DNA from: Synergistaceae bacterium
GTDB lineage: Bacteria; Synergistota; Synergistia; Synergistales; Thermovirgaceae
Length of the DNA stretch: 35,061 nt
Assembly (NCBI GenBank): GCA_012729145.1
Contig: JAAYDT010000006.1
Location: 1-35,061, forward strand
Direction: 5' to 3'
The position numbers and the translations under genes were made by a program. How positions within the stretch are numbered: position 1 is the first letter of the stretch; each line of letters opens with the position of its first letter. The notes beneath the pieces were generated by a model. The model ran no database searches. It saw only the letters and a program-made list of their open reading frames with translations, and was not told the DNA's origin. Shown here one piece after another: positions 9,444 through 31,262 of this stretch.

Positions 9444-10610
9444 TCAGCCGAAAAAGGTGCCGAAGATCCCGCCCGCAAGGGTTGAAAGCACCACAACGAG
9501 ACAGGTGTAAACCACGGTCTTTCTCGTGCCCAGGATGCTGCGGATGACCAGCATGTTGGGAAGTGACAGGGCAGGCCCTGCAAGCAGAAGGGCCAGCGCA
9601 GGCCCCTTCCCCATCCCTGCGCCGATAAGACCCTGTAGAATGGGCACTTCCGTAAGGGTGGCAAAGTACATGAAGGCTCCCAGAACCGAGGCGAAAAAGT
9701 TTGCCCCCAGGGAGTTGCCGCCCACCAGCGTTTCTATCCAGGTGCCGGGAATAAGGGCCTCGTGCCCCGGACGGCCGAGAAGGAATCCGGCCACCAGGAC
9801 TCCCCCGAAAAGCAGGGGGACCACCTGCAGTGCGTAACCCCAGGTCGATCCCAGCCACTGCGAGCGCTCGTCACTGTCGAACCAGACCCTGGAGGCTGAC
9901 AGGGTAAAGACGAAGGCAAGAGCGGCAATGATCCATTTCATTTTATAGACTGTCTCCCAGATCCCGCCCGGGACCCTTGGGGCCGCCCAGTTGGCAAAGA
10001 CCAGGAAGACCACCATCCCGGCCATGTGAGTCGAAGTCTTCCACAGAGGTCTCACTGGTCCGGTTTCGGGGATCTCGACGAAACCCTGCATCCTTTCCGT
10101 TTCTTCCGACCGGAAAACAACCGCCATGAGAAGGCCGATGACCACGCTGAAGACTACCGCTCCCACGGCCCTGGCCAGGCCAAGTTCAAATCCCAGCACT
10201 CTGGCCGTAAGTATTATCGCAAGGACATTAATTGCCGGTCCCGAGTAAAGGAATGCCGTGGCTGGACCCAGGCCGGCGCCCCTTTTGTAGATCCCTGCGA
10301 AAAGGGGAAGCACTGTGCAGGAGCATACCGCCAGGACAGTCCCCGATATGGCGGCCACGGAGTATGCGACCCACCGTCGGGCCTCGGCCCCAAGATACTT
10401 CATCACTGCCTGTTGCGACACGAAGACGCTTATGGCACCTGCGATGAAGAAAGCTGGCACAAGGCAGAGGATCACGTGCTCCCTTGCGTACTCATGGAGC
10501 ATCGCCAGGGCCTCCACGGCCCCGGAGTGCACCCTGGGGCTTTCAACGGGCAGAAAGTAGAACAGGGCAAAGACAGCTGCGAGGACAAGAAATTTTTTCC
10601 GGTCGCTCAA
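9444..10610 (-). CDS. arsP: ArsP/DUF318-type permease
   Basis: This 388-residue polytopic membrane protein belongs to the DUF318 permease family, which includes ArsP, an exporter of trivalent organoarsenicals, and related metal efflux proteins. The family signature AVCSCTVLPLFAGIYKRGAG with its CSC motif and the following SGPAINVLAIIL are intact in the N-terminal half; the C-terminal half repeats the pattern with TLTEVPILQGLIGAGMGKG and AGPALSLPNMLVIRSILG. The frame is open to 10628, but GAGGTGAG places the start at the TTG at 10610. It follows arsR2 and a small thioredoxin on the same strand, a context typical for this family. A terminator lies just upstream, so its expression may be attenuated. 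Confidence 0.82.
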   Translation of the reverse strand: MSDRKKFLVLAAVFALFYFLPVESPRVHSGAVEALAMLHEYAREHVILCLVPAFFIAGAISVFVSQQAVMKYLGAEARRWVAYSVAAISGTVLAVCSCTVLPLFAGIYKRGAGLGPATAFLYSGPAINVLAIILTARVLGFELGLARAVGAVVFSVVIGLLMAVVFRSEETERMQGFVEIPETGPVRPLWKTSTHMAGMVVFLVFANWAAPRVPGGIWETVYKMKWIIAALAFVFTLSASRVWFDSDERSQWLGSTWGYALQVVPLLFGGVLVAGFLLGRPGHEALIPGTWIETLVGGNSLGANFFASVLGAFMYFATLTEVPILQGLIGAGMGKGPALALLLAGPALSLPNMLVIRSILGTRKTVVYTCLVVVLSTLAGGIFGTFFG

Positions 10611-10661
10611 AAATCTCACCTCTTGCAAGTATATGTGTAGATAATGCCACCTATAACCGCG

Positions 10662-10692
10662 AAAAAATCCCCGCCCGGGAATTCAGGCGGGG
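10662..10692 (-). terminator. intrinsic terminator between thioredoxin-like gene and arsP
   Basis: On the minus strand the arms CCCCGCC (10686-10692) and GGCGGGG (10669-10675) are followed by ATTTTTTC (10662-10667 is A6 on the plus strand). It begins seven bases after the thioredoxin-like stop codon. It would limit readthrough into arsP. Confidence 0.8.
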
Positions 10693-10698
10693 GAAGGG

Positions 10699-10944
10699 TT
10701 ATTTCCCTGCCGCCTGTGCAAGGAGGCGTTTCATCTGCTCTGGCGTCGGGACACCCCCTGCGGCCAGTACCTTTCCATCCACGGCCAGACCAGGGGTAGC
10801 CATGACCCCGAAATCGAGGATCTCGGAGATCCCCGTGACCTTTACCAGCTCATAGTTGAGGCCAAGATCCGCTGCCGCGGCCTCAGCCAGTTCGGCCATC
10901 TTCTTGCACTTGGGGCACCCCGTTCCAAGCACCTGTATCTTCAT
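10699..10944 (-). CDS. small thioredoxin-family protein (thioredoxin_3 type)
   Basis: This 81-residue cytoplasmic protein is a minimal thioredoxin fold. The active site TGCPKCKKM holds Cys10 and Cys13 near the N-terminus, and the cis-proline loop reads GVMATPGLAVDGKV. Such proteins are commonly encoded beside DUF318 permeases and ArsR regulators, as here. The start ATG lies 22 bases after arsR2. It could reduce or carry metal(loid) thiolates for the permease; this is inference from context. Confidence 0.88.
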   Translation of the reverse strand: MKIQVLGTGCPKCKKMAELAEAAAADLGLNYELVKVTGISEILDFGVMATPGLAVDGKVLAAGGVPTPEQMKRLLAQAAGK

Positions 10945-29295: not shown

Positions 29296-29309
29296 CTTAA
29301 ATAACGGAA

Positions 29310-29335
29310 GGCCCCACTCAAAGTGGGGCCTTTTT
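29310..29335 (+). terminator. intrinsic terminator of the tRNA transcript
   Basis: Arms GGCCCCACT (29310-29318) and AGTGGGGCC (29322-29330) with loop CAA are followed by TTTTT. It ends exactly at the 3' end of the convergent exonuclease gene and can also serve that strand in part. Confidence 0.93.
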
Positions 29336-30171
29336 CATTCCTCCTGCTTCCAGGCCTTCAGGATCCGGTCGAACCTGAAGGTCCGGCTCTCCCCCCTGAG
29401 TGAGCACCAGGCCTCGAGCATGATCCTGCCTCCGATCCTTACTAGCCCCGTGGGCTCTATAAGCCTCTCAGTCACAGAGCCGTTACCACCCCGGTAGACT
29501 ATGAAGATCTTCCCCGAGACCTCAAAGGCCTCCCTTATGGCTTCGAAACCGGAAGGCCACTGCAGAAGGGCGGGGCTTCGCTCCAGGGCCAGAAGCGATC
29601 TGAAGGAGTAGTCCCTTTCGAACCTCTCGTACTCAATATTCCCTGCCGGATCGATCTTTTCCATGCACTTCAGGAATATTCCCATGGCTGCCAGGGAGTC
29701 GTCCAGGGCCCGGTGGCTGCGTCCCTTCGGCACACCAAGAGCCCGGGCCAGGCTTCCAAGGCTGTAGCTGGGAAGCCCCGGGAAGATCACCGGGGCAAGG
29801 CGGCAGGTGTCGAAAAGATCGTTGTCCAGTGGTCCGGAAAAGCTTTCCCGGCGTACGGTATCGATGAAGCCCATATCAAAGGGGGCGTTCTGGATGACCA
29901 GGGGCCTCTCTCCCACGAAGCCAGCCAGCGTCGACACCGCCTCGGCAGGCGCCGGGGCGCCTTTCACCATGCTGTTGGTAATGCCGTGGATCGCGGTAAG
30001 GGCAGAAGTGATCCTCACTCCCGGGTTGACCAGGGTCTCGAAGGTGTCTATTACCTCGCTCCCCCTGAAAATAACAGCCGCTGCTTCGACGATCCTGTCG
30101 TTAAGGGGGTCAAGTCCGGTTGTCTCCAGATCCAGCGCGGCGAACTCCGTGCCCCAAACCTTTGTCAGCAA
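29335..30171 (-). CDS. DEDDh 3'-5' exonuclease fused to a C-terminal WYL domain
   Basis: The 278-residue protein joins two domains. Residues 8-170 are a DnaQ-like exonuclease with Exo I (ALDLETTGLDP, Asp14 and Glu16), Exo II (VIQNAPFDMGFID, Asp99) and Exo III (SHRALDDSLA, His153 and Asp158), so it should degrade DNA or RNA 3' ends. Residues about 210-278 resemble a WYL domain (IREAFEVSGKIFIVYRGG, then WCSLRGESRTFRFDRI), which in other proteins binds ligands or nucleic acid ends and regulates activity. The frame is open to 30231, but GAGGGTGATC places the start at the TTG at 30171. It is divergent from the ARPP-1 gene. The function of the fusion is unknown to me. Confidence 0.85.
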   Translation of the reverse strand: MLTKVWGTEFAALDLETTGLDPLNDRIVEAAAVIFRGSEVIDTFETLVNPGVRITSALTAIHGITNSMVKGAPAPAEAVSTLAGFVGERPLVIQNAPFDMGFIDTVRRESFSGPLDNDLFDTCRLAPVIFPGLPSYSLGSLARALGVPKGRSHRALDDSLAAMGIFLKCMEKIDPAGNIEYERFERDYSFRSLLALERSPALLQWPSGFEAIREAFEVSGKIFIVYRGGNGSVTERLIEPTGLVRIGGRIMLEAWCSLRGESRTFRFDRILKAWKQEE

Positions 30172-30299: not shown

Positions 30300-31262
30300 A
30301 TGAAGACCGTCATAGAGAGTTTCTTCAATAGCCTCAAGACAGGCGAGCCCTGCAGCTTCAAGGGACTTACGGCCTTCCCGGTTTTCTCCGCCCTCCCGGA
30401 AGCAGTGGACTTCGTGACCCTCACCGAAGCCTTCAGGGAGGACTGGATCGAGATCCGGGAATTGACCCAGGGAGGCTCCGTGCCGGAACTGCTCGTCATC
30501 AACAAGAGCGACCGAAACATCCTCATCCTCGACAGCGAAGAGCTCCAGGGTGCGAAGCAGAACAGGGTGCTCAACATAACCGTGCTGGTGACGGCCTGGT
30601 CCAAGGTGGTGGTCCCCGTAAGCTGCACCGAAAGGGGGAGGTGGCACTACATCTCGAACGTCTTCAGGGACTCTGGCACCATGGCGTCCCGGTCCGTGAG
30701 GTTCTCCAAGAACCGTTCCGTAGGGGAGAGCCTCAGGAGAGATAACAGCTTCAGGTCCGACCAGATGGAGGTCTGGGACAAGGTAGACGAGCTCTCAATG
30801 AGATCCGGCACCATGTCACGGACCCATGCCATGCGGGACGTATTCGTGGACATGGACGAAAAGCTCCGATCTTTCGAAAAGGCCTTCCCGCTCTCCGAAG
30901 GCCAGAGAGGGGTGATCTTCTTTGCCGGAAAGGAACCTGCCGGTTTCGAATACGTCTCTGATCCCCGGGCCTTCCGGGACCTCTTCCCGAAGATACTCCG
31001 AAGCTACGCCGTGGAAGCCCCGCCTGGAGAAGCAAAGACAGCAAAGGCACTTTCAGGGGATCAGGCCATGGCCTTTGTTGGAAAGGTTCTTTCGGCTGAG
31101 ACCACGGTAAAACACTCTGCCGGCAGGGGAGAGGATATCAGGTTTTCAGGCGATGGCGTAACAGGTTCCGCCCTGGCCTACGAGGGCGAGATCCTTCACG
31201 CCGTCTTCTTCCCCGATGAGAAAGAGGGCAGGCCCGTTATCCGCAGGAGACCTGTCAGTTAG
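30300..31262 (+). CDS. ARPP-1/DUF6569-family protein
   Basis: This 320-residue protein matches the ARPP-1 (DUF6569) family. The family core is visible as LTAFPVFSALP, ITELxxxGSVPELLV-like IRELTQGGSVPELLVINKS, the highly conserved ELQGAKQNRVLN around residue 85, and VPVSCTERGRWHY around residue 107. No signal peptide or membrane helix is present. AGGAGG fixes the ATG at 30300 rather than a GTG at 30291. The molecular function of the family is not established. It is divergent from the exonuclease-WYL gene, with 128 bases between the starts. Confidence 0.78.
   Translation: MKTVIESFFNSLKTGEPCSFKGLTAFPVFSALPEAVDFVTLTEAFREDWIEIRELTQGGSVPELLVINKSDRNILILDSEELQGAKQNRVLNITVLVTAWSKVVVPVSCTERGRWHYISNVFRDSGTMASRSVRFSKNRSVGESLRRDNSFRSDQMEVWDKVDELSMRSGTMSRTHAMRDVFVDMDEKLRSFEKAFPLSEGQRGVIFFAGKEPAGFEYVSDPRAFRDLFPKILRSYAVEAPPGEAKTAKALSGDQAMAFVGKVLSAETTVKHSAGRGEDIRFSGDGVTGSALAYEGEILHAVFFPDEKEGRPVIRRRPVS

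Follow-up and report, generated by a model that had tools for sequence, protein, structure and literature searches.

What a WYL domain does at the end of an exonuclease is the question raised by a gene of the window, by which we mean the whole stretch of 35,061 nucleotides analysed here (contig JAAYDT010000006.1 of a Synergistaceae bacterium). A sequence-only reading had described the product as a DnaQ-like exonuclease fused to a WYL domain, had supposed it to be gated by a ligand or by a nucleic-acid end, and had drawn a connection to conflict systems through the neighbouring ARPP-1 gene.

Gene and domain architecture

The exonuclease-WYL fusion is real and the gene is conserved. Pfam searches placed both domains above their cut-offs, RNase_T (PF00929) with E 1.8e-32 and 113.6 bits against a cut-off of 24 and WYL (PF13280) with E 1e-12 and 48.3 bits against a curated cut-off of 21.8, and the coordinates first given for the gene proved correct (Table 1). 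The WYL-like character seen earlier in the last 70 residues was likewise borne out, and the C-terminal part is not an ordinary DnaQ extension, as sequence, profile and structure comparisons all led to WYL proteins. When residues 198-278 were searched alone with phmmer, PafC (2.1e-5) and PafBC (2.3e-3) were the first matches among solved structures, and a profile built from eight related C-termini matched PafBC, PafC, two Pif1-WYL helicases, CapW and BrxR, with the PafBC and Pif1-WYL chains outscoring BrxR and CapW. The same fusion occurs in independent genomes and is therefore not an assembly artefact.

No HTH domain was detected in the 278-aa protein by the Pfam scan, which sets it apart from the HTH-WYL regulators, and the protein ends directly after the WYL domain with neither a WCX nor a dimerisation domain. 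Besides it, the genome yielded a single WYL protein (G000, contig C30, about 10503-10706; L136:1156-2142), which is 328 aa long and, by its layout, a regulator of the HTH-WYL type. The terminator-like repeat listed in Table 1 carries a T-run on the + strand, as judged by reading, and the count from the repeat scan was no more than expected by chance.

Table 1 Features of the exonuclease-WYL locus, in positions of the window
Feature	Coordinates	Strand	Description	Basis
Exonuclease-WYL gene	29335..30171	-	278 aa, TTG start, TGA stop	open frame, Pfam, kept in several phyla
DEDDh (RNase_T) exonuclease domain	29674..30138	-	residues 12-166	
WYL domain	29356..29547	-	residues 209-272; arginines R236, R259, R263, R266, R269	
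Variable linker	29548..29673	-	residues 167-208; model confidence lowest at 198-203	
GC-rich inverted repeat, terminator-like	29308..29332	.	between tRNA genes and exonuclease gene 3' end	
ARPP-1 family gene	30300..31262	+	divergent neighbour, ATG at 30300 by reading	PF20208, 298.9 bits

Predicted structure

The whole protein was modelled with AlphaFold2 from six sequences, which are also the only basis of the domain-to-domain orientation in the model, and was predicted as two domains (mean pLDDT 87.3, pTM 0.69): a DnaQ-like fold and a five-stranded barrel, joined by a linker whose residues 198-203 are poorly ordered. Against the PDB, the whole model matched best the exonucleases of DinG, PolC and DnaQ/epsilon, with ExoX and E. 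coli ExoI lower, and the exonuclease domain is accordingly nearest in fold to DinG, PolC, DnaQ and ExoX. The match to E. coli ExoI has a high rmsd of about 10 Å, and hence the barrel is not positioned as in that enzyme. Modelled alone, the C-terminal 90 residues gave an Sm/SH3-like barrel (pLDDT 84.7) whose best 30 PDB matches were all WYL proteins, namely PafBC, BrxR, DriD and CapW, including ssDNA-bound forms of DriD and one ssDNA-bound form of CapW.

Catalytic residues, groove arginines and selection

The DEDDh motifs, which had been described as fully intact, are present as D14, E16, D99, H153 and D158 and are invariant across 54 aligned fusion proteins from Synergistota, Coatesbacteria, Planctomycetota and Bdellovibrionota. 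In the WYL domain, R236, R259, R263, R266 and R269 align with PafB R181, R204, R208, R211 and R214, and also with PafC R201/R204; mutation at these arginine positions of PafBC abolishes or impairs ssDNA binding (PMC11804915). At the level of sequence, the protein is catalytically competent and equipped with groove residues. All five arginines occur in each of the eight Synergistota proteins, most are kept in Coatesbacteria and many in Planctomycetota. The Bdellovibrionota proteins (30 read) have lost R266 in every case, with S or T at 259 and K at 263 and 269, so that one binding mode may not suit all fusions. The WYL tyrosine is not conserved in the window protein, which has M251; nor are the three eponymous residues a strongly conserved feature of the WYL family generally.

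By the NG86 method, comparison of the window protein with its nearest relative (L021) put dN/dS at about 0.11 in the exonuclease domain and 0.14 in the WYL domain, against 0.22 in the linker; in more distant pairs synonymous sites are close to saturation. The WYL domain is kept by purifying selection, as the enzyme domain is. Judging from the conserved arginines, the prediction that the WYL domain binds nucleic acid is well supported; the same arginines occur in WYL transcription switches and therefore do not discriminate between holding a substrate and gating an enzyme.

Distribution and evolution

Sampling covered Synergistota, Coatesbacteria, Planctomycetota, Bdellovibrionota, Bacillota and Pseudomonadota, and the taxonomic check suggested earlier showed full-length relatives in several bacterial phyla. 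Eight of 188 Synergistota genomes carry the full-length fusion, and a contig end truncates a ninth copy (G001). Among Coatesbacteria it occurs in 7 of 14 genomes, and among Planctomycetota in about 10 of 199. At a threshold of 1e-50, matches were obtained in 183 of the 291 Bdellovibrionota genomes sampled, and among the matches listed nearly all cover both domains (30 read). At the thresholds applied, 250 Bacillota and 299 Pseudomonadota yielded no match covering both domains, the Bacillota matches being PolC-sized frames, and the full-length fusion was absent among the phage and plasmid matches listed. In one Planctomycetota sequence (L135) a 732-aa open frame ends in the exonuclease-WYL region.

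A per-member Pfam scan of 20 proteins found RNase_T in all of them and WYL in 12; the Bdellovibrionota C-termini showed no WYL at E 1e-3 (eight of the 20 members unmatched). A profile of these C-termini had no PDB match. The Bdellovibrionota C-terminus can nevertheless be counted as a diverged WYL domain, because profile comparison relates it to WYL at 95% (E 3.6e-8).

An exonuclease-domain tree of 64 rows places the Synergistota fusions together with WYL-less proteins of the Synergistota family f4 (96/74), and the Bdellovibrionota form a starred clade in it. A single clade of all fusions was rejected on this tree (AU p 0.012), whereas one clade of the fusions together with their WYL-less f4 relatives was not (AU p 0.114); therefore repeated fusion and one origin with loss of WYL both fit. 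The f4 relatives (L007, L010, L011, L012, L041-L054), close in the exonuclease domain and about 193-217 aa long, come from several species and terminate at almost the same position through different stop codons. Other Synergistota encode proteins resembling Pif1-type helicases (L015, L017) whose C-terminal WYL resembles that of the window protein.

Besides the window protein, no RNase_T protein was detected in its genome, which is about 90% complete. Among 21 related genomes, 14 are without any RNase_T protein, several of them at 99-100% completeness, from which it follows that the enzyme is optional and that replication in those Synergistota needs none.

Genomic surroundings

In the Synergistota family of the window, the fusion gene comes after polA, a SurA-like gene and two tRNA genes (Ser GCT, Arg ACG). 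The divergent region said to be common with an ARPP-1 gene is indeed there, 128 bp long, and the neighbour is of that family (Table 1). ARPP-1 is near and divergent in G000, G002, G004 and G005; in G003 the fusion is kept at the same site beside polA and the SurA-like gene without ARPP-1, ARPP-1 occurs without the fusion in the f8 genomes G033 and G040, and in f6 and Bdellovibrionota, too, one occurs without the other. A partnership with ARPP-1 as a rule was rejected, since the linkage is confined to one Synergistota family and G003 is without ARPP-1, and the two genes probably do not form one unit. A functional paper on ARPP-1 was not found in the literature. In G002, a gene for a C_GCAxxG_C_C redox protein (L068:980-1513) sits between ARPP-1 and the fusion gene, overlapping the start of the latter.

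Elsewhere the neighbours differ. The Bdellovibrionota gene stands beside lipoamide-dehydrogenase-like genes, often with a small ORF and a radical-SAM gene; at five loci (L023, L025, L083, L087, L102) the fusion is followed by a recurrent ORF of 73-88 aa, membrane-bound in appearance, and the radical-SAM gene, with the lipoamide dehydrogenase gene often divergent from the fusion. At one Coatesbacteria locus the end of the fusion gene overlaps with an Archease gene (Pfam; L024, 1014-1469), a possible link to RNA repair, and a similar ORF occupies the same place in L116 (2270-2713). Two Planctomycetota loci have neighbours that look, by eye, like oxidoreductases. No defence island was seen at the loci examined in these four phyla, and PADLOC returned matches to single domains with no system-level match.

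Proposed function and alternatives

The reading that we favour, at a probability of about one half, is a stand-alone, optional 3'-5' exonuclease that acts on single-stranded or 3'-overhang nucleic acid, most likely DNA, for repair or turnover, with the WYL domain as its single-strand grip. The N-terminal DEDDh domain would remove nucleotides by two-metal catalysis, and the arginine groove of the C-terminal WYL barrel would bind the single strand, so that the barrel would hold and orient the substrate and would set the preference for single-stranded ends and perhaps processivity. We infer that the bound strand would be ssDNA, that the WYL domain would have a holding role and that the function would lie in repair.

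By analogy, a WYL grip on a single-stranded substrate appears the best-supported role, and may be likened to that in the Pif1-WYL helicases and, more loosely, to the SH3-like domain of ExoI. TePif1 and DdPif1 are likewise DNA enzymes with a C-terminal WYL and the arginine spacing of the window protein, and groove arginines have also been modelled for the Pif1-WYL helicases; however, they are helicases and not exonucleases, with ssDNA binding tested in TePif1 only. The ssDNA-specific E. coli ExoI (SbcB) also has a DnaQ-type exonuclease followed by an SH3-like barrel, but differs in having no WYL, an extra helical domain, low identity and a barrel placed otherwise; an SbcB combines the exonuclease with an SH3-like and a helical domain in a protein of about 450-480 aa, whereas the window protein has 278 aa and no helical domain. 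The exonuclease domains of PolC and DinG and the DnaQ epsilon subunit share the DEDDh fold and are nearest by sequence, but are without WYL and are parts of polymerase or helicase systems.

The architecture itself is not new, since Makarova et al. 2014 (PMC4012209) name a 3'->5' exoRNase among several enzymes fused to WYL. The likeness is a WYL domain on a 3'-5' exonuclease; that protein appears there as a list entry, the main text describing no member, and its identity with the family of the window protein is likely. No paper and no functional study on a DnaQ/DEDDh-WYL protein was found in the literature.

The name exoRNase in that listing (PMC4012209) points to an RNA 3'-end exonuclease, similar to RNase T or oligoribonuclease, that would trim or repair RNA with an Sm-like grip. 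The Sm/Hfq fold of WYL (PMC6789036), the Archease gene and the similar ORF at the two Coatesbacteria loci and the two tRNA genes adjoining the window gene agree with it, but the nearest relatives in sequence and fold are mostly DNA-acting (PolC, DinG, ExoX, epsilon), and an archease neighbour is missing from other Coatesbacteria and elsewhere. We regard this reading as unlikely.

Slightly less likely is that the WYL domain is an allosteric gate and the exonuclease stays silent until WYL binds a signal, for example a fragment of ssDNA or a nucleotide second messenger, that switches it on. PafBC and DriD have a WYL with the same ssDNA-binding arginine groove, and ssDNA at this WYL switches the protein; ligand sensing was moreover proposed for WYL-enzyme fusions in Makarova et al. 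(PMC4012209). PafBC and DriD differ in that they activate transcription as HTH proteins with WCX and work as signal switches, not as enzymes, while the window protein stops right after its WYL. Furthermore, no signal-producing gene (cyclase, CRISPR, CARF) adjoins the fusion at the loci examined, and where an enzyme with WYL offers a precedent, in Pif1, the role is substrate binding. The ligand-gated enzyme suggested by the sequence-only reading is at most possible. More doubtful still is the specific version in which the WYL domain would detect damage-derived ssDNA and switch the DEDDh nuclease on, which would make the protein the enzymatic equivalent of DriD/PafBC and, in Bdellovibrionota, a core enzyme of repair.

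A defence effector, or a part of a conflict system together with ARPP-1, is very improbable. The two genes are near and divergent in four genomes of the family, and PADLOC has WYL and DEDDh models as CRISPR-associated domains, but its matches are to single domains, each gene occurs without the other, and the full-length fusion was not seen among the phage and plasmid matches listed. This candidate was rejected on the lack of a system match and of defence neighbours, and the proposed connection to conflict systems is not upheld, the neighbours being housekeeping genes or, in the other three phyla, genes of metabolic or housekeeping appearance, and the ARPP-1 link local to one family. Lastly, although the protein is the sole RNase_T protein found in its genome, an essential role is very unlikely, and the idea that it serves the lineage as DnaQ epsilon, the proofreading subunit of replication, was rejected as extremely unlikely, on the many near-complete Synergistota genomes without an RNase_T protein and on scores far below the NCBIfam epsilon equivalog cut-offs (TIGR01406, 70.9 bits against 222.7; NF004316, 65 against 196).

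Overall, the analysis corrects a defence-system lead. WYL domains have mostly been studied in transcription regulators and their fusions to enzymes little beyond Pif1; the exonuclease fusion, present in several phyla and common in Bdellovibrionota, offers a small soluble protein in which holding by a WYL domain may be set against switching by it.
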